Shown here: positions 19,053 to 34,374 of the stretch, piece by piece | How positions within the stretch are numbered: the stretch's first letter is position 1 | Layout of the letters: every line of letters starts with the position of its first letter | Origin: a virus | DNA length: 34,374 nt | Strand: one strand, 5' to 3' | Virus record (IMG/VR): IMGVR_UViG_3300046467_002051 | Coordinates: 1 to 34,374 of that record | Position numbers and translations under genes: made by a program | The notes under the pieces: model-generated | Database searches by the model: none | Told to the model about the DNA's origin: nothing | Seen by the model: only the letters and a program-made list of their open reading frames with translations

Positions 19053-19871
19053 ATGGCTGCGCGCATTCAAAGCCTCAGGAATGGGGTGGACCCCATCGAT
19101 GATGCCAGCCGAAACGACCTCGTTTCGGGCGACATTGTTACGGTCACCGCACTGGATGCGGCTACAACCTACAATTGGGCGATTGTCTTCGCCCCACAAA
19201 GCCCTGCGGGTGTTCCAAGCACTGCCACCTTTACCGGTGATGTGTCGATGGTCAGTCCCGGCACCTTCACTGTGGACAACGAAGGTGCTTACCTCGTTCG
19301 CCTCATTGTGGATGCGGGGCTTGCTTCGGAAAGCACCCAATATGTAAGGCTTCGCGCCTTGACTGCTTCATTGAACCTACAGCTTGTAGCTGCGGGGGAA
19401 CGTAGGGACACCACAGGCATCATCCCTGTTGATGTGAGTATCGAAGGGTGGGCCAACGAACAGAACTTCAACCTACAAGCTCTTGAAGCTGCGGCTATCG
19501 CTGCTAAGAATCAGGTGTACCATTTTGCTTTGAACCCAACGAGTCCTTCCTATACCTATCAAGGTTGGGTGTCCGAAACTTGTGTTCTCAAGTCGGTAAC
19601 GGTGTACCTAACTTCGTTTACGGTAGGGACTTGCACCTTCGGGGTGCGAAATGTGGAAACGGGGAACATCGTATTGTCTGGTGGCGCCTTGTACGATTTG
19701 GAGACCACCCCTCTTGGAACGGTGACCAATCTTCCATTAGTAGCGGCCGGTGACCCAGATTTGGTCTTTGACCCCACATTGTCCAACGGTCAGTGGGATG
19801 TGGAACTTAATGCTGGGGCTGGGTGGGATGGTACGAACATCTTCGTTCAACTCGTGTTTGGGGTGGCCTGA
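19053..19871 (+). CDS. Short tail-fibre/adaptor protein
   Basis: A 272-residue product with GGAG (19041-19044) upstream of its ATG. Residues 1-135 are clearly paralogous to the start of the next gene: RNGVDPIDDASRNDLVSGDIVTV here versus RNGIDPELNVSRDDLEVGDIVTV there, then shared YLVRL, QYVRLRALTA, LQLVAAGE and WANEQNFNLQALE. The remaining residues, about 155-272, are a separate beta-sandwich (CVLKSVTVYLTSFTVGTCTFGV, ending NIFVQLVFGVA). The shared part most likely attaches both proteins to the same baseplate partner; this shorter one may be a short fibre or connector. TGATG couples it to the long fibre gene. Confidence 0.68.
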   Translation: MAARIQSLRNGVDPIDDASRNDLVSGDIVTVTALDAATTYNWAIVFAPQSPAGVPSTATFTGDVSMVSPGTFTVDNEGAYLVRLIVDAGLASESTQYVRLRALTASLNLQLVAAGERRDTTGIIPVDVSIEGWANEQNFNLQALEAAAIAAKNQVYHFALNPTSPSYTYQGWVSETCVLKSVTVYLTSFTVGTCTFGVRNVETGNIVLSGGALYDLETTPLGTVTNLPLVAAGDPDLVFDPTLSNGQWDVELNAGAGWDGTNIFVQLVFGVA

Positions 19872-22800
19872 TGTATGTAGCGAGTATCCGAAGCAAACGA
19901 AATGGCATCGATCCCGAGCTCAATGTAAGCCGAGATGACTTGGAAGTTGGGGACATCGTAACCGTCGAGTCTGAGAACATCGGCACCGCATATGCGTGGT
20001 CTTTGGCTTATGTCCCGGATGGAAGTACGGCTGCCTTGACCCCTCCGGGGGCGGTGATCACCAAGGGTCCGCTTTCTTTCCAAGTAGACAAGGCAGGACC
20101 GTACCTTGTACGGCTCCAGTACAGCACACCCAAGGTTGACATAGCTGCTCCCGTAGCGGTGGGCGAAAGCCTAACCATCAACGGCCTCGCTCTTAATGCC
20201 GTAGCTGTTGTCGTCGGCATCAACGAATTCGCAGTGACAGGAAGCACTACAACGGATGCTTCGGCTATTGCCAGTGCCATCAATGATGTTGCTAATGGTT
20301 GGGCCTCTTCCATCACCGCATACAATGTACCGGGTTCCAGTCAGGTATTGATGACCCCGGATGTAGATGGCTTCGCAATCGTTATACAGTCCACCACTTC
20401 AAATATGGTTGTGGGTACGGCCACTACGGAACAGTTCGTTAGACTTCGTGCACTCACCGCTTTTGGTGCCTTGCACCTTGTAGCTGCAGGGGAACAGTAC
20501 GGTGGCTCCAACCCACCCATTCCCGCAGACATCGACCCCGTGGGGTGGACAAACGAGCAGAACAACAACCTTCTCTCATTGTTGAGTCTGGTTGAAACCG
20601 TTTCTGCTTCTGGGAACATCCTTTATGTGGATCCCATTTCAGGGGACTTCCATACCATTCAAGCGGCTATCGATGATGCCGTAAGCAAAGGACCTTCAGT
20701 GCAAAGCCAATGGCTTGTGGCTGTTCGTCCGGGGGTTTACCAAGAACAACTGACCTTCGCACCCTTTGTGCATGTGGTGGGGTGGCCTGGAGTGACCGAG
20801 TTCACTTCTATCTATGCCGGTGCAGAAGTCGTTAAAGTCCAACAGACGGCTGCGATGGGTGCGCACTCAATCGCATTGCCTGTGGCTAACGAATGCCTTT
20901 TGATTGCAGGAATCCACTTTGAACGCCCCGGTGCTGGTGCATCGGATGTGATCCAAGAACAAGCCGGCAGCAGGGGGCTCACCCATCTGCACCATTGCAG
21001 ACTCACCAGTTCTGGAACTGGCGCTTGCTATCATTCAGGAGGAACCACCGGTGCCCCAACCATCTTGGAAGATTGCTACCTTGCTGCGGATTTGGGGTGG
21101 GCAGTAGCCATTGGGGAAAATTCCTACACACAACTATTTCGTTGTCGCCTGGGTGGCCAAAGCGGTATCCAGCTCGTACACAATTCGACAGGGTACCTCC
21201 GAGATTGTTGGGTTGACCCTACGGGGGCGACGGCCGTCGACATCCAATTTTCCGCAGTTGGTTCGCCGGGGTCTACTTTTGAAGCAGTCTATACGCGCTT
21301 CAAGGGGGAATGTACCGTCAACAACAGTCAAGATGGTTGCAATACCGGTGTGGAATTCCGCGGCTATTGGTGTGACTTCCAAAACCCTGGCGACATCTCG
21401 ATGGATGGAACCAACGTCGCTGCGGCTGCAAACATCCGCTTGGGTGCCAGCCAGCACGGAACCATCGAAGCGATTAACGGTGCCCTTTATGTAGCCTCGG
21501 TGCCTGCCGATACCATCTTCTACGACCACGCTTTAGTGAACCACAGTCGTATCATCGGGGTCACTGAAGTTGCGGGGGATCTCACAGCCGAAAATGTTCA
21601 AGATGCTATCGATGAAGTGTATTCGTACGCCATCGAAGCTCGCACCTTGGACGATGCTTACGATGCCGGAATGGTTGGTGGGGGTCTTGGGCGAGACATC
21701 GTTGCGGACTCCGAAGCGGTTCGCATCCTCGATGGGAACCCTCCGGGAACCGACACTCCGATTACCAGTACCGATGGGCAGCTCCAAGTTGTTTCCAAAA
21801 TAGAAATCGGTGGCATCGGCAAAGCTGAAATCAAGCTCGACCCCAACCCTTTCGGTGGGGGTGCTGAAATTACTCTCGGTGAAGCGGTCTGGGTTGGTAA
21901 TGCTCCTTATGGAAGTCCCACTTTCATTTGGGGAAACTCTACTTCTACGGCCACCTACCACAACTATGACTTGTTTCTGAGCGCACAGCCTACGGATGGT
22001 GGGGGCCAAGTCGGTTCCATCATTATGCGCGGCGGTGCGGGGCTCAATAGCGGTAAGGGGCATGATCCCACAGGCGGTGATGTTCATCTTGTTGGTGGTG
22101 ATGCACTGGGAGAGAACCTTCCAGCTTCAGGCACCGGAGCCCCAGATGGGGGAACGGTTTATATCGCCCCTGGTGGTCTTCGGTATCCAGCTACCGCAGG
22201 AAGCGTCGGAACTATCCTTTTGGGTAGGCCTGAGGATGCTACGCGAGCGGTTTTGAATGCACCCGCTGCCTATACGGTTCCTCTCGCTAACGGTATTGCA
22301 ACTTTCGGTACGGACCTTGGAGCTTTCACTATTGATTTGGTTGCTGGGTCCCTCATTGCAGATGCAATCTCCAAGCTGAACCAATCCCAATATGTGATCG
22401 CAGATGAGAGCCCTGTGGGGTTCATTCGAATCCAGAGTGCTACCAAAGGACCGTTGGCTCAAGTCTTCTACATCACAGGGGATCCCGCCATCCAAACAAA
22501 CCTTGGGAACTTTCAAGCGACCACTCAAACGAATGGCGATTGGCCTTCCCACATGGAAGTGGTTGTTTCGGCAGCCAATGAGATTTCATTCGGCCCCAAT
22601 GCTCCAGCCGGACCCCTTGTCTACAATGCGAATAGCGGTAAGCTCACCGTTCCGGGTGTGATTGATCCCACTGGGATGATCTACACCGAGTCCACACTTG
22701 CCAATCTCACATTGGCAGCCAATGGATGGACCGCAACCGACATCGGGGGCTTGTTTGTTGCCGATGGAACAGCCGGGTTGGATGACAACCATCTCTACTA

Positions 22801-23416
22801 TGTCTTCGAAGACGGCACCCCACTCAAGCTTTCGGGCGGTGGGACTGGAGATGTGGTTGGTCCGGCTTCTTCAACCCACAATGCAGTAGTTCGATTTGAT
22901 GGTGCAACGGGGAAGATCCTCAAGGACAGCAACGCCCTATTGGCCGATAACGGTGATTTGGGGCTCGTAGGTTCGCTTACGGTTGACATCGTAGTTGCGG
23001 GTACGGATGCCTTCGTCCTCCTTAACCGTTTTACCAATGCTGCCTCATCCGCAATCATCCACACAACAGGTGGGGTTCCGGATTGGACGACTGGGACACA
23101 AACGGTCAGCAGTGACTACGCAATCGCAGACGGGGGCGGCAATGAACGGTTCAAGGTTGCTGCTACAGGGGCGGTTACAATCAATACGGCCTACACCCTT
23201 CCTGTTACGGATGGTGTTGCCTCAGGGGATGTTCTAACAACGGATGGGGCAGGTACGGTGACTTGGGCGACAAGTAGCGGTGCGCTTCCAGCTCCTACGG
23301 CAGAAGGGGAAATCCTTTATGCGGTAACCGCTGCGGCCTTTGTGCGTGCAACCCCTTTAGTCAACTCTTCCGGGTTCATTCTCGTCAACTCTTCAGGAAA
23401 TATGGTGGTGGTTTAA
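19871..23416 (+). CDS. Long tail fibre/tailspike with beta-helix
   Basis: The start is the ATG at 19871, which overlaps the previous stop (TGATG) and puts the shared domain at the N-terminus; an in-frame start at 19823 is rejected. The product has 1,181 residues. Residues 1-87 and 182-240 are the anchor domain shared with the 272-residue paralogue, split here by an inserted domain at about 88-181 (ESLTINGLALNA, AIASAINDVANG). Residues about 248-560 look like a pectate-lyase-type right-handed beta-helix (HTIQAAIDDA, VAVRPGVYQEQL, repeated short strands and Cys). About 563-620 is the fibre motif ENVQDAIDE...LDDAYD. About 717-790 is Gly-rich. Residues about 1002-1170 carry fibre-type motifs (NAVVRFDGATGKILKDSN, GDVLTTDGAGTVTWAT). 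It ends with a tandem LVNSSG repeat. The likely role is receptor or surface-polysaccharide binding; no catalytic residues could be assigned. Confidence 0.82.
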   Translation: MYVASIRSKRNGIDPELNVSRDDLEVGDIVTVESENIGTAYAWSLAYVPDGSTAALTPPGAVITKGPLSFQVDKAGPYLVRLQYSTPKVDIAAPVAVGESLTINGLALNAVAVVVGINEFAVTGSTTTDASAIASAINDVANGWASSITAYNVPGSSQVLMTPDVDGFAIVIQSTTSNMVVGTATTEQFVRLRALTAFGALHLVAAGEQYGGSNPPIPADIDPVGWTNEQNNNLLSLLSLVETVSASGNILYVDPISGDFHTIQAAIDDAVSKGPSVQSQWLVAVRPGVYQEQLTFAPFVHVVGWPGVTEFTSIYAGAEVVKVQQTAAMGAHSIALPVANECLLIAGIHFERPGAGASDVIQEQAGSRGLTHLHHCRLTSSGTGACYHSGGTTGAPTILEDCYLAADLGWAVAIGENSYTQLFRCRLGGQSGIQLVHNSTGYLRDCWVDPTGATAVDIQFSAVGSPGSTFEAVYTRFKGECTVNNSQDGCNTGVEFRGYWCDFQNPGDISMDGTNVAAAANIRLGASQHGTIEAINGALYVASVPADTIFYDHALVNHSRIIGVTEVAGDLTAENVQDAIDEVYSYAIEARTLDDAYDAGMVGGGLGRDIVADSEAVRILDGNPPGTDTPITSTDGQLQVVSKIEIGGIGKAEIKLDPNPFGGGAEITLGEAVWVGNAPYGSPTFIWGNSTSTATYHNYDLFLSAQPTDGGGQVGSIIMRGGAGLNSGKGHDPTGGDVHLVGGDALGENLPASGTGAPDGGTVYIAPGGLRYPATAGSVGTILLGRPEDATRAVLNAPAAYTVPLANGIATFGTDLGAFTIDLVAGSLIADAISKLNQSQYVIADESPVGFIRIQSATKGPLAQVFYITGDPAIQTNLGNFQATTQTNGDWPSHMEVVVSAANEISFGPNAPAGPLVYNANSGKLTVPGVIDPTGMIYTESTLANLTLAANGWTATDIGGLFVADGTAGLDDNHLYYVFEDGTPLKLSGGGTGDVVGPASSTHNAVVRFDGATGKILKDSNALLADNGDLGLVGSLTVDIVVAGTDAFVLLNRFTNAASSAIIHTTGGVPDWTTGTQTVSSDYAIADGGGNERFKVAATGAVTINTAYTLPVTDGVASGDVLTTDGAGTVTWATSSGALPAPTAEGEILYAVTAAAFVRATPLVNSSGFILVNSSGNMVVV

Positions 23417-24808
23417 ATGAGTGCTTTTCATAATCAACAGACAACAGCCGATGGCATCCACATCTTGCCGCGATACACTTTTGGCTCGGCGGCAGATATG
23501 CTCGTAGGGGTATACACCGCAGCCGATGATGGTTGTTGTATTCAAGTAGGGGCTGCGGCACCTTTCACATACTACATCTTGAAGGATTCCAGTAATTCAG
23601 GGGATCTGGCTCTCGGCTATGTGGGCATTGCCACCGGGACGGGTGACTTTGTTGGTCCCGCTGGGGCTACCGTAGGCAATGCTGTTTCCTTTGGGGATGC
23701 GACGGGGCTTGTGGGTGCGGACAGTGGAAGGGCCGCAGGCAACATTCCTTCGTCACTTCCGGTAGGGTTTGGTGAAGGTGGGACGGGGCAATCAACACAA
23801 CAAACCGCCATGGAAGCTCTTTCCCCACCAAACAAAACCACATTGTGGGTTAATTCCGAGTACACAGGAACATCCACCGGTTCCGTCAATGCTCCTTTCT
23901 CCCACATTCAGGATGCACTGACCCATATTGGACCCGCAACAACGGCTGCGGAAGAGTATGAATCTTGGGTCCTCGAAGTCGCTCCTGGTTTTTACCCCGA
24001 AAACCTCATTATCCCGGAATTGCGAACCATTGCCATCAGCAGTGTGGGAATTGTGATTATGAGCGACCACACACTTGCACCGTCACATTCCGTAACGATG
24101 AACAATACTTCCACACCCATTACCGCATTTCCCCACCTGCTTTCTTTCGTCAACATTTTCTTGACGGGATCGGTAGTTCTTCTTTCCAATGCTGCGGGGT
24201 CTATGTATGAAGTCCATTTCACAGGTTGTAACTGGGCAAACTCTGCATTTGCAGGAGCTTGCATCGACGCCACAGGTTGGCCGCAAGGCCCCGAACTTCG
24301 GTTTTTCCTCACCAAATCCCGACCCCAAAGTTCTGGGACAGACATGATTCTTTCTAACACCGCCCATCCGCAAGCTGATGTAGGACTTTCATCCGCCGTC
24401 GATTGTGATCTTTCTTCAGGAAACATCACTTTAGGAGGGTACGGGCGCCTTCAAGGTTGCCGCTTCGGTGGTGACTGCGATTTCACATGGGTTGGGGGTG
24501 CAAGCACTGGCAGCAATTTGGATCACCCTGTCGGGTTCGTTGACTGTTCGTGGGACAATCCCGCCACGCATACTATCAAGTGTCATGGTGTCGGGGACTT
24601 CCGTGTGGACTCTATGACTTATCGTTCAACGGAGGGGATTCTCTTTGCAGGATCTGCCGCTTTTACAGCGGACCCTTACAGGGGCTTGTCGAACCCTTAT
24701 TTCCCCTATGGGGGGCAATGGGTTGGCGGCGGACAGCCCGACCAGCGGACTGCACTCGACCGCTTGGCTTCGGCGGTTCAAGGACTGCTTGGCGGTCAAA
24801 TCCCATAG
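23417..24808 (+). CDS. Second tail fibre with beta-helix domain
   Basis: A 463-residue product whose ATG directly follows the previous TAA. The N-terminal 135 residues are Gly/Ala-rich fibre sequence ending in the common phage fibre motif GEGGTGQSTQQTAMEAL. From about residue 141 a beta-helix-like region begins (APFSHIQDALTHI, WVLEVAPGFYPENLIIP), with the same PG-F/Y-Y-x-E-x-L turn as the long fibre upstream, then strand repeats with CDLSSGNITLGGYGRLQGCRF. The C-terminus has an aromatic/Gly-rich patch (NPYFPYGGQWVGGG) and a short helix. Fibre identity is well supported; whether the helix cleaves polysaccharide or only binds it cannot be told. Confidence 0.76.
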   Translation: MSAFHNQQTTADGIHILPRYTFGSAADMLVGVYTAADDGCCIQVGAAAPFTYYILKDSSNSGDLALGYVGIATGTGDFVGPAGATVGNAVSFGDATGLVGADSGRAAGNIPSSLPVGFGEGGTGQSTQQTAMEALSPPNKTTLWVNSEYTGTSTGSVNAPFSHIQDALTHIGPATTAAEEYESWVLEVAPGFYPENLIIPELRTIAISSVGIVIMSDHTLAPSHSVTMNNTSTPITAFPHLLSFVNIFLTGSVVLLSNAAGSMYEVHFTGCNWANSAFAGACIDATGWPQGPELRFFLTKSRPQSSGTDMILSNTAHPQADVGLSSAVDCDLSSGNITLGGYGRLQGCRFGGDCDFTWVGGASTGSNLDHPVGFVDCSWDNPATHTIKCHGVGDFRVDSMTYRSTEGILFAGSAAFTADPYRGLSNPYFPYGGQWVGGGQPDQRTALDRLASAVQGLLGGQIP

Positions 24809-24825
24809 CCTAATCGTTGGTCTCC

Positions 24826-24845
24826 CTATCGTTCTGCAGGGGTAG
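24826..24845 (+). promoter_or_regulatory. Motif B copy 2 (CTATC-N7-AGGGGTAG)
   Basis: This copy lies in the 100-nt gap before the 1,914-residue gene and matches the copy at 19010-19029 in all 13 defined bases and in the 7-nt spacing. The rest of the gap shows no terminator hairpin, but it contains a GGGAGG and a possible mini-ORF (24874-24909). Confidence 0.42.
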
Positions 24846-24873
24846 ATGTCTTTATTGTCTGTGGGAGGAAGGT

Positions 24874-24909
24874 TTGCCAAGGTTGGGTCGCAATAGGATA
24901 AGTCTCTAA
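24874..24909 (+). CDS. Possible 11-codon bridging mini-ORF
   Basis: A TTG codon lies 5 nt after GGGAGG (24863-24868), the strongest ribosome site in this gap. The frame reads MPRLGRNRISL and its TAA overlaps the ATG of the 1,914-residue gene (TAATG). The large gene itself has only a weak AGGAT upstream, so coupling through this leader is plausible. It may also be chance. Confidence 0.33.
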   Translation: MPRLGRNRISL

Positions 24910-27900
24910 TGCCTATCTTCTTACCGGGTCCCATTTTTGGGTTTGGGTATGGAGGGGATTCCTACGGTTATTCCCCTTACGGAGCTCCGGCTTTTCCGAG
25001 GCTCCCCGTTCCAACTACTGGGGGCTATGGTGGCGCTCCCTTCGGGTACTCCTCCTATGGATCGGTGGACATAACCCCACCGAGGGTTACTTCTGTTCAA
25101 TCCCTTGATGGCTTCCGTGTGGAAGTGTTCTTCAGTGAGGAGATGAATACCGCTTCCGTTTTGGCTGGTGTGTACACTTTCACAGCTACCTTCGGGGTAG
25201 CTGTGACTTCGGTTGCGGTTACTCCCGGTACTGCTGGGGCATTGGGGCTCACTTCAGCCATCGTGGAGCACACAGGCACCACTTTAGGCGGTGCCTATGT
25301 ATTGACCGCTTCTGGGCCAACGGATGCCGCCGGGAACCCTTTAGGGCCTCCTCCAGTCAATAGTGCGGGGTTCTTGGCTTATGGGGATGTTCCTCGGGTA
25401 GAAGCGGTGCTCCCAACCCCTGATGATGGTCGAACCGTAGAAGCGCACTTCTTCCGTTCTACGGGGGCTGCTACTCAAGATATGCTGCCCGAAGCTGAGT
25501 ACACTCCTGGTATCGACGACCCTTCTTCCTACTCCATTTCCACAAGCTATCCGGTAGCCCCAACCCTCAACTCTGCCGAGCTTCAAGCCCCACCCAATAA
25601 TTCTATCGTGCTTCTGGATGTCCACCCAATGACATCCACTTCCTATGACTTGTTGGTTGGTCCTTCGGAAGCCTTTTCCTACTCTGGAAATGTCCTTCCT
25701 TCCGCAGACCCAGACATTACGGCAATTGAAGAAGGGGTTGGTTCAAGCAGTCCTTCATCGGCAGGTTTGCTGTTGTCCAAAGCGGGAGGGGATTCCTATG
25801 GCTGGATTTTTGGGGATTCTTCCGGGCGATTAGTTCCGAACACTTCCTTCCGTTCCGCTTGGACCTTTGATGTTTCCACTGCGGTAATAGCTCCCCCCAT
25901 TGTGGGGGCGCCCACTGCGGTTTTCGCCGTTTGTGATGGCGGGGTGCAGATTAACATCCTTCTCAACGACTTGGCTGGAACCAAGGTGATCGACGTGATG
26001 AGTCCCGGTCTCATCGCACAAGCTCCGGCAGAATGGGATAGTGGACCCCATACCCTTTCCTTGATCCGCAACATCAAGGGTGGGTTTTATTCCGTACTGC
26101 TTGATGGAACACCCCTTCTGTCATTCCTCGCGGGGGCTGCTCTTGGTCCCCCTATATTCCCCGTCGGAGCTCCGACGGGGAATTCCCTGATCCTTCCTGC
26201 GGCCGGTTCCTCGATCAGTCTCTTCAAGGTTCAAAAGGTGAACCTCACCGCTTCGGATACGGTGTTCACGACGGCGTGGAACTTCGTTCATGGTGTTGTG
26301 TCCAGCTTCACAGGATCGGCCGTTCTTACTCGGGACAATCTGTATACCGATAGGGGGCCGCTTGTTCGAGGCTGGGGAGATGCCACACCTGCCAAGAAGG
26401 AAGATGTATCCATTGAATTGAACGGGGTGGGGGTAGCCGTCAAGAAGGTAAATCCCTACCACGGCCAGATCTTCCCTGAAATACCGATTCCCCTTACGGA
26501 AAAGCCTTCTACGGCTGTTGGAACCATAGGGATCGGCCCCGCACAACCCTTGGTCGGAGCCATTGTTACCGTAAACGGTGTCTCCCTTCAGGAAGGTGCG
26601 GTCGTTGGGTGGGCTAATGGGGCAGACATCTATGCCACTGCCGCAGCTTTAGGTGCAGCCATCGCAACCCATTGTGGGGTGGCGGTGGATGTAATGGGTT
26701 CCTTGCTCGAGCTTTCGGCTCTCACCGTAGGGATTGCAGGGAACAGTATCGGCCTGGCAAATACGAGTGGCGATACCAACATTGCCATTTCAGGGGCGAC
26801 CTTGAGTGGTGGCATCAATGAGATGGCGGTCTCGACAGACTACATCTGGTTTGCCAACCCGCCATTGGAATTTGCGGGTCTCAACACTATGGGGCTCACC
26901 CTAAACAAGTGGGATCGGGCTGTAGGGCATACGGCACCACCTGTTTCTCCTACGATGATGGGTCCGGGAACTCCCAATATGGGGCGTTTTCCTATGGGGT
27001 TGTTGCTTGCCCCGATGGAACGAAAGTCGCCCATCAAAATCGGACATCGCTATCACGGTCTTCAAAGGGACTATTCTGCCCTTCTTAACGAACCTACGAG
27101 CCTCCTGCTCAACATAAATCCCCATTCAGTTTCTCTTGGGGGGGTGTCTGCGACCGCTATTGAGGAACGGGGATACTTTTCTGGGGATGTAGATCCCGTA
27201 CTGCAAGCCGGTTTCCCCTGGGTGGCTGAAGGGGTTGTACAAGGGGAGCTGGTTACTTCTGGGTGGACCCTTACAGATGCGACCTCAGGTTCCTACGACA
27301 TCGGATTTCCTGCGCTGTATTCCCGAGAAGCTGATCTCTCGTTATCGACAGAGTGTCTTTACTACACTCGCTTGCGCGTAGATTCATACACTGCGGACGG
27401 TGTTTTTACCGGCATCGGTTTCGGGGTTCACGATAACAATCATCTTGTTTTGGCAGGGTTCGTTGTCGTTGATGGGATTCGCCACCTGGGATTGCTGAAG
27501 GATGCAGAAAAAACCCATCTGGAAGAAGGGTGGGAATTAGGTCCCAAGGCGACGGCTACGGGGCTTACCACCACTACTATTTCCATTCCCCACACCGCAC
27601 TTCCGACAGGATTGCATCAAGCCTCCGGGTCTGACCTCACATGGACGAAGTTTAGGATTCCTTCAGGGGTGCAAGCAGGGGTGTATCAAATCGCAGCTTG
27701 TGGGATGGAGCTCGACACAGACGGCAATGTGGAAATCACATTGGTTTCCCCATTGGCGGTTAGTCCGACTGAGTACGGTGCGGACGTGTTCGAAGTCTTG
27801 TTCGATGTCCCATGGGATTCGGACTTCGCCACCTACCAATTACGGAGTGCCTTCCCTTCAAGCTCTGCCGAACTCTATATGGGTGGGATGCTGTCGGGGA

Positions 27901-30653
27901 TGGTGGTTTCCATCACAGAAGCTGTTCCTTACCCTGCAGACACCGCATTGGTGTTGCCTGAAGGTGATGAAGGTGTCTTCTTCTGGGGCTCCGTATCACG
28001 CTTGGCAATGTCGGTTTCTACATGGGGTTTGGCGCAATACAGTTCATCACCCCTCCGGATCCTCAATACTGTTACGGGTGTCAATGTCTTTACGGAAATG
28101 GGCAAGACCCCTCAGGAAGAGACCACCGACCCTTGGTTCATTACGGGTGGTTTCGGGTTTTCCGAAGTGGATGCGACAGGGGACACACTCCTTTTGTCCA
28201 GCACTTCCTCCACCGCTACGAGCGTACCCAATTTAGAATTTGGGTACGCTCGTATTGAGCCGTACTTGACCCCCCAAGTCACTACGGATTTGGAAGCCAC
28301 CTTCTTATTGGAAACGGCTTCTTTAGGGGCGGGTGCCGCTCAACTGCGCATCCAAGATACGGAACGTGAAGTTCGAATCGCTACTCTGCGCATCCAGCAA
28401 TACCCCCCTTCCAGCAACCCCAACACCTTGCGCGCATTGCCCGTTGTTTCCATATCCGGCTTGCAGGATCCAACAGCAGAAGGATGGACAGCGGGGGCAT
28501 CAAACGACCTGGCTATGAGCATTCGGGGTCAGCTCTTGTCGCTGGAGACCTCTTCCGGCACCCAAGGGTTTTGGTCCCAGGAAGTTGAACCCCCACCTGT
28601 TATGGATGAGGGGCTTATCACCCAAATGCGGGTTGGGGTGGAGTCCTACAGTCTGGGCAGCACCCCTTATTTGGGTGTGTTCGTAGGTGGCTCTACGGCA
28701 CATTTGGCGATCCCGTTGGTCACCCGCAATGTGTCCACCATCTTGGCAGAAATTGGAGGGGTTCCTTCCGTTGCACTGGTAGATAATGCGGGCACCTTAG
28801 TGGGGGCCTTTGCATTCGACTTTACGGATGGGGAACTCCACACCTACCGCACCTTCATCGATCCAAACGCCAACATCGTGGTGCTGAAGGTAGATGATGT
28901 GGTGCTCGGGAATGTGCCCTTCTCAGACTTTTCCGCTATCGCCAATAGCGAAATTGTATGCCAATTCGGGATTATGGGCACCGCTTCTGTGAAGTCCGTA
29001 TGGGATTCCGTAACGGCTCTTCCCCTAAGACCGGGTGGCGGTCTGAGCTCGGCTACTTTTGTTCGCACCCTTGGTATTTGGAATGGGGGTCCTGAACAGG
29101 ACATCAACAGCTACACAATTCCCCGGGAAGATGGATTAAGTGTTCCCAACTCAGATCACCAAGCCGTTTTTGTGGAAATGGATTGGCGTTCAAGCTGCCG
29201 TGTTCGAGCATACTTAGACCCTGCGTGGGGAGTGGGTTTGTATCGCCCAGATCTTCCGTTGCCTCCTTGGGCAACGGAAGACTTCGCTACGGAAACTACC
29301 GATCCTTCGGCCGCTTGGGCCAACCTCGAGTATTCACAGCTTCCCCATCAAGAAGAAGAACGGGGAATAGTTAGTTTCGGTGCCATTGACCCGCAGGGTG
29401 TATCCCAACAACGGTGGGATTCTGTTCGGTATCGAATCCGAGCTCTTCCCACCGGTTACGGAATTGCTCCCCAAGGGATGATCCTAAATCGAGCGACACC
29501 GCTTACTTCAGGGGAATTCCTTTACGACACCACACCAGAAGTGGTGACGGTTCGATCCCTGACTGCGCGCACCGTAAGTGTGTGGTCTTCAAATATGATC
29601 GCAGATCGGGTGTTCGTAGTGGTGGTGGATGGGGCGGTTATTCCTTCCACCCATTGGACCTTCCAGCACGACACTCAAATTATCGTTCTGACGGATTCCC
29701 TGCCTGAAGACCGCTATCCAGTCACTGTGACCTTTGCTGCCGGGAAGCCTGTAACCGACACCTACTTGTGTTCACAACCCATCAGTGGGTCAGTGACCCT
29801 TCTCAATGAAGGCACCCCACCGATACCGTTGTCTCGCGACAGTGCCGCTACTCGTTCCATCGTAGCGGGGTCTATCATCAATGACCCCCTTGATGTCTTA
29901 GATGATGCAGCCACACTCATCACAAATGACCCCAAGAGGACCGTAGAGTTCAGCCTTGGGCCGGATGCGTTGTATGCGGATTTGGATACTTGCGAGGTCA
30001 CCGATGGTGAGAGTGTTCATATCACCACTTTGTGTGATGCTCCCGGTCCTGGAATGGGCTTTTCAGCTCTTGAAATCGATGGGCCCTTCGTCAATAACGA
30101 GTTCACTGTTCCCGGTGGTCCTGCGGGACCGCATAAGGGTTCACCTTCTATTAAGGGTTCTACCACCCACTTCAACCCCGCCGTTATCTTTGTCGCTTCC
30201 GGTGGGGGGATCACTGGTGGGAACCTTGGTCCCGGCACCGCTATCCTCCATCCGAACCAACGCGGTCCGGCACACACACCGCCTCCGGGGGGATTCGGGA
30301 TCAATCAGGACTTCGGGATGGCCCTCGCGCTTCGGGCTGTGGTGACGGATGCGTCAGCAGATCCGGTTGTTGAACAACTCCTCAATGAAACCTTCGACTT
30401 CCCTGCTGAAGCTGACAACACCACACCTTCTGGAGTGACCCCCGCAAACGGGTACGGGGCAGCCGATGCGGTGTTGGAAGATTTTGCTCTTGTGGCTTCC
30501 CATCTTGGCCCGGCGGGTGGGTTGTCGGACTTGATTGCGAGTAAGTCTTTACTGGCGGGTGGGGCACCCTTGAATGGTGGGGAATTCACTCTTATCGGGG
30601 GAGCCTTGTTGCCGGCACCTGTGGTTACAGACTTCGTAATCCAACACCCTTGA
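24909..30653 (+). CDS. Giant tail/spike protein with Ig-like and LamG-like domains
   Basis: A 1,914-residue product. Residues about 9-52 are a Tyr/Gly-rich, low-complexity start (GFGYGGDSYGYSPYG). Residues about 54-150 match an SbsA-like (Big_5) Ig domain: PPRVTSVQSLDGFRVEVFFS, EEM, then TDAAGNPLG. A second related domain follows (about 160-275). Residues about 280-440 look LamG/concanavalin-like (HTLSLIRN, FYSVLLDGTPLLSF), and similar lectin-like segments recur near 805-890 and 1270-1340 (GELHTYRTFIDPNANIVVLK, VDDVVLG). Residues about 545-640 contain a relative of the LTING domain inserted in the long fibre. The C-terminal third is Pro/Gly-rich beta structure. The likely role is a large virion decoration or receptor-binding protein at the tail. 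The gene contains three long perfect inverted repeats. Confidence 0.78.
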   Translation: MPIFLPGPIFGFGYGGDSYGYSPYGAPAFPRLPVPTTGGYGGAPFGYSSYGSVDITPPRVTSVQSLDGFRVEVFFSEEMNTASVLAGVYTFTATFGVAVTSVAVTPGTAGALGLTSAIVEHTGTTLGGAYVLTASGPTDAAGNPLGPPPVNSAGFLAYGDVPRVEAVLPTPDDGRTVEAHFFRSTGAATQDMLPEAEYTPGIDDPSSYSISTSYPVAPTLNSAELQAPPNNSIVLLDVHPMTSTSYDLLVGPSEAFSYSGNVLPSADPDITAIEEGVGSSSPSSAGLLLSKAGGDSYGWIFGDSSGRLVPNTSFRSAWTFDVSTAVIAPPIVGAPTAVFAVCDGGVQINILLNDLAGTKVIDVMSPGLIAQAPAEWDSGPHTLSLIRNIKGGFYSVLLDGTPLLSFLAGAALGPPIFPVGAPTGNSLILPAAGSSISLFKVQKVNLTASDTVFTTAWNFVHGVVSSFTGSAVLTRDNLYTDRGPLVRGWGDATPAKKEDVSIELNGVGVAVKKVNPYHGQIFPEIPIPLTEKPSTAVGTIGIGPAQPLVGAIVTVNGVSLQEGAVVGWANGADIYATAAALGAAIATHCGVAVDVMGSLLELSALTVGIAGNSIGLANTSGDTNIAISGATLSGGINEMAVSTDYIWFANPPLEFAGLNTMGLTLNKWDRAVGHTAPPVSPTMMGPGTPNMGRFPMGLLLAPMERKSPIKIGHRYHGLQRDYSALLNEPTSLLLNINPHSVSLGGVSATAIEERGYFSGDVDPVLQAGFPWVAEGVVQGELVTSGWTLTDATSGSYDIGFPALYSREADLSLSTECLYYTRLRVDSYTADGVFTGIGFGVHDNNHLVLAGFVVVDGIRHLGLLKDAEKTHLEEGWELGPKATATGLTTTTISIPHTALPTGLHQASGSDLTWTKFRIPSGVQAGVYQIAACGMELDTDGNVEITLVSPLAVSPTEYGADVFEVLFDVPWDSDFATYQLRSAFPSSSAELYMGGMLSGMVVSITEAVPYPADTALVLPEGDEGVFFWGSVSRLAMSVSTWGLAQYSSSPLRILNTVTGVNVFTEMGKTPQEETTDPWFITGGFGFSEVDATGDTLLLSSTSSTATSVPNLEFGYARIEPYLTPQVTTDLEATFLLETASLGAGAAQLRIQDTEREVRIATLRIQQYPPSSNPNTLRALPVVSISGLQDPTAEGWTAGASNDLAMSIRGQLLSLETSSGTQGFWSQEVEPPPVMDEGLITQMRVGVESYSLGSTPYLGVFVGGSTAHLAIPLVTRNVSTILAEIGGVPSVALVDNAGTLVGAFAFDFTDGELHTYRTFIDPNANIVVLKVDDVVLGNVPFSDFSAIANSEIVCQFGIMGTASVKSVWDSVTALPLRPGGGLSSATFVRTLGIWNGGPEQDINSYTIPREDGLSVPNSDHQAVFVEMDWRSSCRVRAYLDPAWGVGLYRPDLPLPPWATEDFATETTDPSAAWANLEYSQLPHQEEERGIVSFGAIDPQGVSQQRWDSVRYRIRALPTGYGIAPQGMILNRATPLTSGEFLYDTTPEVVTVRSLTARTVSVWSSNMIADRVFVVVVDGAVIPSTHWTFQHDTQIIVLTDSLPEDRYPVTVTFAAGKPVTDTYLCSQPISGSVTLLNEGTPPIPLSRDSAATRSIVAGSIINDPLDVLDDAATLITNDPKRTVEFSLGPDALYADLDTCEVTDGESVHITTLCDAPGPGMGFSALEIDGPFVNNEFTVPGGPAGPHKGSPSIKGSTTHFNPAVIFVASGGGITGGNLGPGTAILHPNQRGPAHTPPPGGFGINQDFGMALALRAVVTDASADPVVEQLLNETFDFPAEADNTTPSGVTPANGYGAADAVLEDFALVASHLGPAGGLSDLIASKSLLAGGAPLNGGEFTLIGGALLPAPVVTDFVIQHP
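26156..26183. repeat. 28-nt perfect palindrome inside the 1,914-residue gene
   Basis: ATTCCCCGTCGGAG followed by its exact reverse complement, with no spacer (centre GGAGCTCC). It is coding, around residues 416-425. The transcript could form a long hairpin or the DNA a cruciform. Confidence 0.9.
28217..28254. repeat. 15-bp perfect inverted repeat, 8-nt loop
   Basis: TACGAGCGTACCCAA (28217-28231) and TTGGGTACGCTCGTA (28240-28254) are exact reverse complements. They lie inside the 1,914-residue gene, around residues 1103-1115. Confidence 0.9.
29252..29281. repeat. 12-bp perfect inverted repeat, 6-nt loop
   Basis: TCTTCCGTTGCC (29252-29263) and GGCAACGGAAGA (29270-29281) are exact reverse complements. 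They lie inside the 1,914-residue gene, around residues 1448-1458. Confidence 0.9.
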
Positions 30654-30705
30654 TCTGTTCGGTAATGTTTTTATTCACCTTCATAAGTAAACCTTGGAGA
30701 TAGAT

Positions 30706-31467
30706 ATGCCTGCCCTTCGTATTGCCACCATCAAGTTGGCTGCTGAACTTCCCAAAGGAAGCGCAGCGAAAATCGCGCTCTTGAAATTGCTTCGCAAGGT
30801 GGCGAACCGTCCTATGACTGAAGGTGTGAACCTCAAGGCTTATCGGGATGGTAATGCTTGGATGGGATACGTGATCGATGCGGGCGCTTCTGCAAAGGGT
30901 GCCTCCAAGTTCTACGAGATGGTTGTGAGGCCAGGTGGGATGAAAGGTTGGCAACTTGATAAGGTGTACGGAGCTCTGACTGACCGCGGCAGTGGTGCCA
31001 ATGTGCGCACACTCACCGAAGACCACGGGTCCCAGATGTCAGCTCAAGCTGCTATGGCAAAGCATATTCGCAAGCGTAAGAGCCGGGGATACACCGATGC
31101 TTTCCGTACCCGTCCTCTTGGGCAGTATCCATTGAGCTTCCGTACCGAGAGTCCCGGCTTCGGCCATGGCACACAGGAAGGGCTTTCTTGCCTTCCCGAA
31201 ATGCGGAACCTTCTCCTTCTTGTTGAAGCCGCTGTGGATGCCGCAGAAGTGTCGGATGAGATCGAATTGGTGGAACAACTCGAGGATGCTCGGGACAGCT
31301 TGAACCGATTGCAACGGTCAGATGTGAAGAATGAAGTTCAGAAGAAGCTGCGCGGCCCCATTTCAAGGCTTCGGGGACAACCTCGATGGATCAAGGAAAT
31401 GCCACGGGTTCTTCGGGAATTGCTTACGGCTCGGAACTACTTGCGCCGCATGTTGAAGCACTGCTGA
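30706..31467 (+). CDS. WGR-like domain protein
   Basis: The ATG at 30706 follows GGAGA (30696-30700); an in-frame TTG at 30694 overlaps that site and is rejected. The product has 253 residues. Residues 1-35 are a helical segment (LAAELPKGSAAKIALLKLLR). Residues about 66-133 resemble a WGR domain: ASKFYEMVV, KGWQLDKVYGALTDRGSGAN, then a helix AQAAMAKHIRKRKSRGYTDAF, matching the family layout of K-F/Y-x-x, a W-G-R-like G-x-x-G turn and a closing K-x-x-x-GY. The literal W-G-R triplet is VYG here. WGR domains bind nucleic acids or regulate PARP-type enzymes in other proteins. Residues 165-253 are charged helices. It follows the giant spike gene by 52 nt and is probably not a virion protein. The domain call is tentative. 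Confidence 0.6.
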   Translation: MPALRIATIKLAAELPKGSAAKIALLKLLRKVANRPMTEGVNLKAYRDGNAWMGYVIDAGASAKGASKFYEMVVRPGGMKGWQLDKVYGALTDRGSGANVRTLTEDHGSQMSAQAAMAKHIRKRKSRGYTDAFRTRPLGQYPLSFRTESPGFGHGTQEGLSCLPEMRNLLLLVEAAVDAAEVSDEIELVEQLEDARDSLNRLQRSDVKNEVQKKLRGPISRLRGQPRWIKEMPRVLRELLTARNYLRRMLKHC

Positions 31468-31472
31468 TTGGG

Positions 31473-31817
31473 TCAAACCCCAACATTGAAAGCTTGTACT
31501 TCAGCCCCACATTCGGGGCAGCAAGGTTCGTTCTTACTCTTAGACCAGTCGGGTTCAAGGGTGGGTTCAAGGCACGCATTCCAACCGCATCGGTCTTTGG
31601 AAGCCTCAACCTTTGTCCAATGTGAACAAGTCCCGCGAAAGGCGAACCCTTTACAGGTGCAAGTCCAACCGTATTGACAACCTTGAATGTCGCGGTCCCG
31701 GTTGTTCAACCTGCCAAAGCGCACAACATAATCGGTTCCTTTGGAACCAGATACGGTGGTAGACCAATCAAGGTTTGTGGTGCAAGTCCATGCACCCATA
31801 ATCGTTAAATCAGGCAT
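31473..31817 (-). CDS. SWIM zinc-finger protein
   Basis: A 114-residue product from the ATG at 31815-31817, preceded by AAGGAG that overlaps the stop of the upstream minus-strand gene; an in-frame TTG at 31835 is rejected. Residues 53-66 read CTCKGFAFRGTCSH, an exact SWIM motif (C-x-C-x(n)-C-x-H). A second potential metal site is C99, C100 and C103 (PCCPECGAE), with C77 and C82 between. SWIM domains bind zinc and act in DNA or protein binding, for example in SWI2/SNF2 ATPases, MuDR-type transposases and Sws1/Shu complexes. A free-standing 114-residue SWIM protein suggests a small adaptor or regulator. It is translated with the KOW-like gene and converges on the WGR-like gene with a 5-nt gap. 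Confidence 0.72.
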   Translation of the reverse strand: MPDLTIMGAWTCTTNLDWSTTVSGSKGTDYVVRFGRLNNRDRDIQGCQYGWTCTCKGFAFRGTCSHWTKVEASKDRCGWNACLEPTLEPDWSKSKNEPCCPECGAEVQAFNVGV

Positions 31818-31827
31818 CGCTATCTCC

Positions 31828-32862
31828 TTACACAAGAATGCGGATTTCAGGGTTTTGTTCTACAAGTCGATTTCGACCTCTTTCCGTAAGGGTGGCAATT
31901 ACTTCACCCCGATAGTTCAGTGCATCGGCACCATCGACAAAGCAAACTTCATTGTAGGGCCACCGAAGTTCTTCTTTCTTGGGAGCCGGAACCGCTACAG
32001 GAGCAGCTACGATGGTGGAACGGCTACCGTCCAAGCGTTCAACTTCATCAAGGGGCAACCACAGGGGTTCAGGGCTGCGTCCTCGTTGTTCTTTGACGGG
32101 GCGCGTATCGACACCGCAACGGTCACCGTTAATCCAGAACAAGGTTCCTTTGGTTCCATCTGCGATGACCCGAACCCGATGCCCCTTCTTCGGGCGAGAG
32201 GCAATAGTGGCAGTCTCCGCTGCGATGACAGCATCCCGATAAGCGGCCCAACCACCAACAGGGGTTTCATTAGGTTCCAAACCGGCAACAAGGGCTTCGC
32301 AATTGGAGATGGAAGTGTAGGTCAACTTGTTGAGGAGGGGGTCGAAGCCTTTTGGGGGTTGACCGGTAACGGCGATGCCGACGCGGTAGCCCCATTCGGT
32401 AGCCCCCATCCATCGGACGAGGCCTCGCGTTCCTACGGGAACCTTGCGACCCTTTACCACTACGACTTCACGCCCGTTCACCACTTTCTTCAGTTCTTCT
32501 TGTGCTTCCTTTTCCAAACGGCGAGCCGTATCAAGTTCTTCTCTTGCGGCACGGATGCGAGCCTTGCGGTCTTGCGCAGCCTTATATGTAGCAATGATAT
32601 GTGCAGGAGCATCAACTTCCGAAACACACCCACAACGAGAACTGAGGTTCGTCGTATAGATGGTAATGGTTTTTACCTCTTTGGATTCCTCATCCCAAAC
32701 CTTTACGAAGGTCTGGTTTTCCCAGACATCAGACATGACCCGGACACACTTGACCCAAGATTCGGTTACCACCAACCCTTTGTGGGAAACACCGTCAGGC
32801 TTCCACTCATTGGTATACCGACCGTCTGGTCCTTTCACTCGTGCAGTCCACTGGATAGCCAT
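31828..32862 (-). CDS. KOW-like domain protein with coiled coil, unknown function
   Basis: A 344-residue product, ATG at 32860-32862 with a strong GGAGG upstream. Residues 1-92 are beta-rich with a CGC pair at 77-79. Residues 93-128 form a charged coiled coil (KARIRAAREELDTARRLEKE). Two KOW-like segments follow: about 139-165 (RKVPVGTRGLVRWMGATEWG) and about 224-256 (KKGHRVRVIADGTKGTLFWI, then DRCGVDTR), each with the G-x-x-G-x-V/L core of KOW/SH3-type RNA- or ribosome-binding loops. A nucleic-acid or transcription-linked role is possible but not shown. It is the first gene of a two-gene minus-strand unit with promoter-like block A directly upstream. Confidence 0.7.
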   Translation of the reverse strand: MAIQWTARVKGPDGRYTNEWKPDGVSHKGLVVTESWVKCVRVMSDVWENQTFVKVWDEESKEVKTITIYTTNLSSRCGCVSEVDAPAHIIATYKAAQDRKARIRAAREELDTARRLEKEAQEELKKVVNGREVVVVKGRKVPVGTRGLVRWMGATEWGYRVGIAVTGQPPKGFDPLLNKLTYTSISNCEALVAGLEPNETPVGGWAAYRDAVIAAETATIASRPKKGHRVRVIADGTKGTLFWINGDRCGVDTRPVKEQRGRSPEPLWLPLDEVERLDGSRSTIVAAPVAVPAPKKEELRWPYNEVCFVDGADALNYRGEVIATLTERGRNRLVEQNPEIRILV

Positions 32863-32878
32863 GCTTTCCTCCTTCGCT

Positions 32879-32921
32879 CATTAACTAATACGAGACGGGT
32901 CCAAATCTATGGCCCTGTGGG
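32879..32921 (-). promoter_or_regulatory. Promoter-like block A, copy 2
   Basis: Read on the minus strand: CCCACAGGGCCATA, 17 nt ending CTCG, then TATTAG and TTAATG. The block matches the one at 18455-18496 in 12 of the first 14 bases, in the spacing, and in CTCGTAT-A/T-AG. The start codon of the KOW-like gene lies about 16 nt after the block, giving a very short leader. The block is probably the promoter of the minus-strand KOW/SWIM pair. Confidence 0.52.
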
Positions 32922-32981
32922 TGTCGCTTTTCGGTGGTCTTCCGATAGTTCCCCTATGGAACAGGTGGAGCGGAGGCTTCT

Positions 32982-33149
32982 ATGGGTTGTGGATGTAAGA
33001 AAGCGGGGTTGGCTCGCAAAGCGAAGCGAATACCGGCAGCAGCAAAACAAGCCGCGGCTCAAGGTAGGCTTCGCACTGCGTCCAATAAGCCAAAGCGCCA
33101 AAACCCTGCCAATACCCGCCTGCCAGTTGGGAAGCGGGGGCGTCGATGA
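32982..33149 (+). CDS. Small very basic protein with MGCGC start
   Basis: A 55-residue product. The ATG follows GGAGG (32972-32976) at 5-nt spacing. It begins MGCGCKKAGLARKAKR and continues as almost pure Lys/Arg/Ala/Asn/Pro sequence ending in VGKRGRR, with about 16 basic and no acidic residues. The two Cys are within the first five residues. Small 'MGCGC + basic' proteins occur in some large phages as far as I recall, with no known role. The composition suggests nucleic-acid binding or disorder. Its TGA overlaps the next ATG (ATGA). A 68-codon frame overlapping it (ATG 32956) lacks a ribosome site. Confidence 0.62.
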   Translation: MGCGCKKAGLARKAKRIPAAAKQAAAQGRLRTASNKPKRQNPANTRLPVGKRGRR

Positions 33150-33199
33150 ACGATGTTCTTAGCATGCTTTTGGGTAAGGTAGGATCGGTGGAGATTTAG
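33146..33199 (+). CDS. Possible 17-codon bridging mini-ORF
   Basis: The ATG overlaps the stop of the 55-residue gene (ATGA), the frame reads MNDVLSMLLGKVGSVEI, and its TAG directly abuts the ATG of the next gene (TAGATG). It contains the GGTGGAG ribosome site of that gene. It may be a translational coupler; a functional peptide is not supported. Confidence 0.32.
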   Translation: MNDVLSMLLGKVGSVEI

Positions 33200-34374
33200 A
33201 TGGCAATCAGAAATAAATACTTCCCCGGAACTTCCGTTTCTCGCTACCTCCCCCCAGGGGAACATTCGTGGGATTCTGAAGTCTACCAGTCTGGGAAACC
33301 CGTTTTGGATGCGGAACTCAACCTCTCACAAGAGGTCCGTTCCCATTTAGAAAACCTTATCCAACAACGCGAAGCCCCTTCGGGATGGCTTAGGGGCCCG
33401 ATTCCTAACCAGCCGATGGCTGATTTCAACTTCCTTGGTACCAGTGACCCGGAGTTTGTAGACAACACTTTTTGGATGCGTAAGCGCACCGCTTTGGTGG
33501 CAGGAATGCCAGTGGTGGTGGACTACACTGCTACTGCAATAGCCGGGTGGAATATGGTTCAGCTTGAACCCGCCACCATCTACGAAGGAACCCCCCCTTC
33601 AGTGAAGCGTACGGACTTTGTGTTCTTGGAAGTATTCCGAACACTCGTTCAGCCCCCTATGACTGCTTCTGCTACCGTTCAAGTAGCGAATCCTGTGGTG
33701 TTGGCTCCAGCGGACACCCTTACGATTAATGGTGTGCTTCTTACTGCGACAGCGGGTGTTCCTGGTGTCGGTGAGTTCCATGTCGATACCTTGGATTCTG
33801 TTATCACAGCAGGCAACATTCGGGATGCCATCAATGACGCTGCCAATGGCTTCACCGCTATTTGCACAGCAAGTCTCGATGCCACCGTTCCGGATCAAGT
33901 GAACTTACGGGCGGTTCCCGCAGGAACCTTGGGCAACGTCATCACCCTTGCTGCCTCAAACGGCCTTGCGTTCATCCCTAATCCACTTCCAGCCACCTTC
34001 TCAGGTGGAACCAACCCCACACCGAATGCGTACCCCACAGAGGGCAACCTGTATCGGTATGGGAATGTCTTGTCTCCGGCAGCCACCAATCTGCTCAACA
34101 ATATGATTGACCCGACGGTGGACACCGAAACTGCAGCTCGAGTGCAAATCCAGTACCGGATTAGAGCTACGGGTGCGGCTCAGGGTGTGAACTTCAAGAC
34201 TGAAGCTGACGGCTTCACCAATACACAAGTGTTGGCTTGGGGTTCTACTGGCGGTGATGTTGTCAACTATCCCTTTATGAAGGCAGATGGGGTGTCCACT
34301 CCTGTAGCCCCCGTAGTTACCGACCCCACCCTCTACCAGACGGTAGACAATGGCTTGTGGATTGCGGGGGATGG
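33200..34374 (+). CDS. Tail structural protein, 3' end outside window
   Basis: About 391 residues are visible and the frame is open at the right edge. The ATG is preceded by GGTGGAG at 6-nt spacing. Residues about 28-50 read EVYQSGKPVLDAELNLSQEV, and about 138-150 DFVFLEVFRTLVQ. Residues about 159-273 are the LTING domain (DTLTINGVLLTATAG, GNIRDAINDAANGF, LGNVITLAAS). After it, LYRYGNVLSP and ETAARVQIQYRIRATGAA continue what looks like the interrupted host fold. The PVLDAELN-x-x-QE and ET-x-x-RVQ-x-QYRIR combination is one I recall from large phage tail proteins, without a named function. It restarts the + strand tail gene series after the minus-strand cassette. Confidence 0.7.
   Translation, partial: MAIRNKYFPGTSVSRYLPPGEHSWDSEVYQSGKPVLDAELNLSQEVRSHLENLIQQREAPSGWLRGPIPNQPMADFNFLGTSDPEFVDNTFWMRKRTALVAGMPVVVDYTATAIAGWNMVQLEPATIYEGTPPSVKRTDFVFLEVFRTLVQPPMTASATVQVANPVVLAPADTLTINGVLLTATAGVPGVGEFHVDTLDSVITAGNIRDAINDAANGFTAICTASLDATVPDQVNLRAVPAGTLGNVITLAASNGLAFIPNPLPATFSGGTNPTPNAYPTEGNLYRYGNVLSPAATNLLNNMIDPTVDTETAARVQIQYRIRATGAAQGVNFKTEADGFTNTQVLAWGSTGGDVVNYPFMKADGVSTPVAPVVTDPTLYQTVDNGLWIAGD

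Follow-up and report, generated by a model that had tools for sequence, protein, structure and literature searches.

The question raised by this locus is whether a segment found in three unrelated virion proteins is a single domain that has been inserted into each of them and, if it is, how it came there and why it is kept. The locus is a virus record of 34 kb (IMG/VR record IMGVR_UViG_3300046467_002051; "the window" denotes the whole stretch of 34,374 nucleotides that was analysed). A baseplate J gene lies near the region and the gene order is common to relatives, which identifies the window as a tail module from very large phages. Viral contigs were scanned with the three host proteins, and relatives were found on contigs of up to 297 kb and in the 485-kb metagenomic phage record LR745208.

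Three copies of the domain in the window

The initial annotation had described a segment of about 90-115 residues that recurs in the long fibre, in a protein of 1,914 residues and in the protein at the right edge of the window. Profile searches place a copy in each of them, here called a, b and c, with HMM envelopes of 99-117 residues for a module of about 105 residues overall. The relevant features are as follows.

19305..19340, plus strand: empty site in the 272-residue fibre-head paralogue, a 12-residue loop (IVDAGLASESTQ) between YLVRL and YVRLR
19871..23416, plus strand: long fibre with a beta-helix-like middle, host of copy a (probable start)
20129..20425, plus strand: copy a (HMM envelope), residues 103-201 of the ORF from 19823 (long fibre), 99 aa
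24909..30653, plus strand: structural protein of 1,914 residues, host of copy b
26514..26819, plus strand: copy b (HMM envelope), residues 536-637 of the 1,914-residue protein, 102 aa
33200..34372, plus strand: right-edge protein, host of copy c, cut off at the window end
33665..34015, plus strand: copy c (HMM envelope), residues 156-272 of the right-edge protein, 117 aa

Within the ORF that runs from 19823, residue 17 (ATG at 19871) is the probable start of the fibre, since the equivalent methionine begins the fibre heads of relatives. The 1,914-residue protein matched no Pfam or PHROG family, and the relatives of the truncated right-edge protein are mostly about 1,080-1,260 residues long. 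A suspected further copy in the fibre (residues ~826-905) found no support, and the search of the window yielded no copy beyond the three.

Copies a and c are 38% identical and give a Smith-Waterman score of 111, against a mean of 38.6 (sd 7.4) for shuffled sequences; none of 500 shuffles scored as well. The pairwise comparison of copy b with copies a and c gave a score of 51, which was reached by 44 and 23 of 500 shuffles and is not significant. Since pairwise statistics alone do not reach significance for copy b, it was judged by profile and bridging evidence. An independent profile, for which 12 first-site copies from the right-edge family and no others were used, detects copy a with an independent E-value (iE) of 1.7e-11 and copy b with one of 2.6e-4, while reversed ORFs gave no match below 0.1; BLASTP also connects copy b with a copy carried by one of the right-edge relatives (E 1.9e-5). 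Taken together, these comparisons establish the homology of the three copies at the level of sequence. The motifs that had been claimed for the segment hold in part: the "EF-V" and "AIN" positions are present in the fibre and right-edge copies, and they are degenerate in the 1,914-residue protein, where EF-V is missing and AIA stands for AIN. The positions that are conserved in the domain look structural, and neither a conserved surface patch nor a ligand motif was found among the copies. In composition, all copies stand out from the remainder of their host proteins by very little Lys and Arg and by much Ala and Thr. Scans of Pfam, NCBIfam and PDB sequences with the domain copies yielded no family, and a search of plasmid records gave no match.

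Empty sites in related proteins

The fibre copy had been regarded as an insertion relative to the 272-residue paralogue, and this was upheld: YLVRL and QYVRLR are joined by 12 residues in the paralogue and by 106 in the fibre. About 20 fibre-head relatives have 11-12 residues between the same two VRL strands, and among the relatives checked the insertion is common only to the closest, a 297-kb contig (G001). A comparable situation is seen in the 1,914-residue family, where 22 related ORFs, some of them near-duplicates, contain roughly 25 residues (range 22-43) at the place where the window has 130; PIPL and VDYIWF flank the empty site, whose junction is clean, and the insertion is shared only by L028/L004, which belong to the same 297-kb contig. 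In both families, the boundaries of the insertion agree with the ends of the HMM match. It was also observed, at residues 475-640 of the 1,914-residue protein, that a strand of the empty site (AxGTxTV) resembles the first strand of the domain (ASGTIxV), which marks a possible recombination point.

In the right-edge family, the domain is present in 12 relatives and absent in three distant ones, which agrees with the earlier impression that it interrupts the host fold. By this comparison, the insertion in the right-edge family is old and nearly fixed, unlike those in the fibre and 1,914-residue families, and from the near-fixation it follows that the domain may have become structurally needed there. 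The domain also occurs in two tail sheath homologues that are 51-56% identical; it lies at residues 695-796 in one and at 957-1071 in the other, and each insertion site is empty in the other protein. With clean empty sites for all three hosts of the window and reciprocal sites in the two sheaths, the alternative that related phages always carry the domain in the same proteins, with no insertion/absence polymorphism, is false.

Predicted fold and relation to known families

A common fold had been expected for the three segments. Copy c folds confidently in an AlphaFold2 model made with 19 copies in the alignment (pLDDT 85.4, pTM 0.81) and consists of four strands, one helix of 13 residues (residues 45-57) and four further strands. 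The model of copy b, made in host context with only two inserts aligned, was unusable (pLDDT 43) and was kept out of the fold searches; copies a and b are expected to share the fold of copy c on the basis of sequence profiles. In BFVD, the copy c model was matched best by proteins of RcTitan and by further tail, sheath and capsid proteins of phages, whereas Foldseek against PDB alone gave nothing below E 0.2. Alignment with VIA-align gave a Z-score of 12.2 for residues 94-198 of the cyanophage A-1(L) sheath (8kee_A; rmsd 2.9 over 99 residues), 9.4 for the sheaths of Sf14 and phiTE (9cba, 9c3b), 9.1 for the Mu sheath, 8.4 for the T7 tail (nozzle insert), 7.0 for T4 gp11 and 6-7 for the outer domains of FliD and flagellin; values of Z below 8 may reflect only a common arrangement. 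The modelled fold of copy c is thus shown to be closest to the outer domains of tail sheaths, and the likeness extends over the whole domain.

Sheath outer domains (A-1(L), Mu, phiTE, Sf14) are accordingly the best fold matches, with Z from 12.2 to 9, though the sequence identity to the solved sheaths is low (11-20%). Domain copies match positions 100-223 of the tail-sheath profile phrog_165 (E 3.1e-7 and 4.4e-6). An hhalign comparison with the A-1(L) sheath finds the matching place (102-186) at E 0.025, which is only suggestive, and HMM scores of the domain against the A1, Mu and T7 proteins were not significant. Unlike the sheath outer domains, the domain occurs in many proteins that are not sheaths, and it is also inserted in the sheaths of this phage group. 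The outer domains of FliD and flagellin, Flagellin_IN (PF07196) and the FD domain of the crAss auxiliary protein share with it a similar fold, an ING...AIN-like signature and an accessory position. The likeness to FliD and flagellin stands at Z 6-7, short of direct homology; the Flagellin_IN model scores 13.7 bits, below its gathering cut-off of 22.7, and two of 21 copies match it (best E 0.048).

By profile, phrog_28344 is the same domain; it is an unannotated viral cluster that has not been described as a mobile domain. Nine of 21 copies of the window's family match it at E up to 1 (best 6.9e-9), as do many further hosts, among which the tandem pair of RcThunderbird reaches E 2e-38.

Ig-like domains have been reported in diverse phage structural proteins (Fraser et al. 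2006, as cited in PMC9230969). The domain described here behaves in the same way, being sporadically inserted in or fused to diverse virion proteins, apparently dispensable and spread between phages, and some of its hosts belong to the Ig-bearing major tail families phrog_807 and phrog_2175. It differs in the helix at the middle of its predicted fold and in that, by structure, it matches the outer domains of sheaths best. Antibodies appear among the Foldseek matches only at E > 1, and no other Ig-fold chains are among the structural matches listed. Pfam Ig, BIG or FN3 were not matched by the copies at a useful level; one copy gave a weak TIG match (E 0.006). Domain mosaicism in phage proteins has been described as a general shuffling of fragments in tail proteins (Smug et al. 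2023, PMC10684548), and a term search of the main text of that paper found no mention of a flagellin- or sheath-type domain. No account of the domain as a mobile module was found in the open-access literature, to which the search was confined. Hence, the behaviour is known from phage Ig-like domains, and sheaths and the crAss auxiliary capsid protein have each been noted to contain a similar fold, while the domain itself appears to be undescribed.

Further hosts and the relationships of the copies

Relatives of the right-edge protein carry extra copies at two other sites, namely residues ~367-475 (L004-L007) and 713-822 (L017). The 297-kb contig G001 has ten copies in seven genes: one in the fibre, two in the homologue of the 1,914-residue protein, two in the right-edge homologue, one in the sheath (phrog_2839, E 2e-24), a tandem pair in a 703-residue protein and one each in a beta-helix-like protein and a protein of 389 residues. 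As judged from these sequences, several insertion sites and several host genes per phage are shown. The protein with the tandem pair was seen in two large-phage contigs (L096:1286-3394 and L102:1170-3296); it is 703-709 residues long and Cys-rich, with CxC...CxxC motifs, and the pair lies near its N-terminus. The body of this protein has no family match.

Outside this phage group, the domain matches the tail tube proteins of Rhodobacter phages (E 1e-5). In these proteins (PF18906/phrog_290), a tandem pair precedes the tube fold in RcThunderbird, and a single copy lies inside it in RcMeacham. Scans with degenerate peptides were unproductive, as no stretch was conserved enough, and a wider sample was obtained with an exact DNA pattern for VSGATLTGG.D; this sample is biased to copies with that ending, so the conservation of the motif in it is no evidence. 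All 36 viral loci found with this C-terminal-motif pattern carry the domain. Their hosts include head decoration proteins (phrog_49), head-tail adaptors (phrog_442/132), major tail proteins (phrog_807/2175) and sheaths, and non-contractile sheath proteins (PF23845) also act as hosts. There were four prokaryotic hits, one of them an SLH-bearing S-layer-type protein with two copies, which was located in a Clostridiales MAG (L071:565-4401, minus strand). The diversity of host proteins, which the initial annotation had wished to see explored by a profile search, therefore extends over tubes, decoration proteins, adaptors, major tail proteins, sheaths and an S-layer protein.

A tree of 63 domain copies, in which the deep order is poorly resolved, groups copies from the same site in different phages; at the site in the 1,914-residue protein, the window and G001 are joined with a support of 100/98. 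No two copies of the window form a supported pair. Recent duplication within the genome was considered as the source of the three copies and found no support, since none of them is closely sister to another in this tree. One viral contig contains sister copies in a 263-residue protein (L045:5868-6656) and in a phrog_807 major tail protein (L045:9563-10675), and these are the best candidate for spread within one genome. The second copy of the Clostridiales S-layer protein groups with copies from the phage contigs L034 and L040 (support 100/94). This grouping hints at an exchange of the domain between phages and bacterial surface proteins.

Proposed origin and role

The reading that is preferred here, to which a probability of roughly 60% is given, is that of a promiscuous virion accessory domain that would be surface-exposed and dispensable, would spread by in-frame recombination and would be kept for weak adhesion. 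The sequences show one domain family that occupies many loop sites in frame and is often missing in relatives. It would be a self-contained module of about 105 residues that entered unrelated structural proteins and was then inherited together with the host gene, the spread itself probably proceeding by illegitimate or homologous recombination of the ordinary kind, from one structural gene to another. Like its structural kin, the domain would be displayed on the exterior of the virion. The host protein would assemble without need of it, as its absence in relatives and the structural kin suggest. Present many times along tail and fibres, an extra exposed domain may bind cell surfaces or polymers weakly and without specificity; weak surface adhesion has been proposed both for Ig-like domains and for the additional domains of sheath proteins (PMC9230969).

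The main rival to adhesion is stabilisation of the virion. The domain would then serve as a structural spacer or clamp, with neighbouring copies touching each other or the adjacent subunit and stabilising tail, sheath or capsid, and there would be no binding to host cells. A role in stabilising the disk has indeed been suggested for additional domains of sheath proteins (PMC9230969), the crAss auxiliary protein touches the major capsid protein through its FliD-like FD domain (PMC10172136), and the near-fixation in the right-edge family would fit. However, fibres, 1,914-residue proteins and sheaths exist in relatives without the domain, and a single kind of contact is difficult to reconcile with insertion into fibres as well as decoration proteins and adaptors, so that this role is regarded as rather unlikely. 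It is more doubtful still that the domain is a tolerated passenger, a cheap insert that loops accept and that has no function of its own. Such a passenger would suit the sporadic distribution, the lack of a conserved ligand motif and the composition, which is rich in Ala, Thr and Gly and almost free of Lys and Arg (1.8% K+R, compared with 6.3% in the rest of the hosts), but ten copies in one contig argue for selection that keeps a folded domain, and old sites have long been retained with the core motif conserved.

Two further explanations carry very little weight. The segments might not be homologous at all, their likeness being an artefact of the Ala/Thr/Gly-rich composition or of convergent beta-hairpins; the biased composition and the pairwise scores of copy b lean this way, but the independent profile with its clean reversed-sequence control, the agreement of insertion boundaries with HMM ends and the full-length matches across hosts make this highly improbable, and the empty sites contradict it. 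A self-mobile element, e.g. an intein or an insert associated with a homing endonuclease, would account for precise in-frame insertion alongside empty alleles. This is hardly credible for a domain of only ~100-117 residues in which no intein or endonuclease family was matched, which has no direct repeats at its boundaries and the same GC as the host gene, and which is accepted by many unrelated sites; in addition, no copy of the window has another of the three as its clear nearest relative.

Many stretches of tail, sheath and head proteins of phages, to which Pfam assigns nothing, gain a domain that can be detected by profile and named. The natural empty-site pairs (fibre, 1,914-residue protein and sheath) make its function testable, as they provide nearly alike proteins with and without it. 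The idea of the promiscuous Ig domain is extended to a fold that looks nearer to the outer domains of flagellar caps and sheaths, and the findings suggest that, in very large phages, a single virion bears this module on many of its parts. More tentatively, and at somewhat less than even odds, the domain may represent a second promiscuous virion superfamily, independent of the Ig-like one, that links sheaths, nozzles, tubes, decoration proteins, adaptors, fibres, S-layer proteins and flagellar cap proteins, and that is copied around single huge-phage genomes and exchanged with host surface proteins as a general display module.

Gene order around the host genes

Between the genes of the 1,914-residue and right-edge proteins, the window contains an ORF of 344 residues with an ATG start on the minus strand (31828-32862). 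It sits amid tail genes on the plus strand and is overlapped by a plus-strand ORF (31741-33162). In LR745208, relatives of the two leftmost large proteins of the window are found downstream of the tail genes and on the opposite strand (L003:32083-41132, minus strand); the changed place and strand of these genes indicate that the module has been rearranged.
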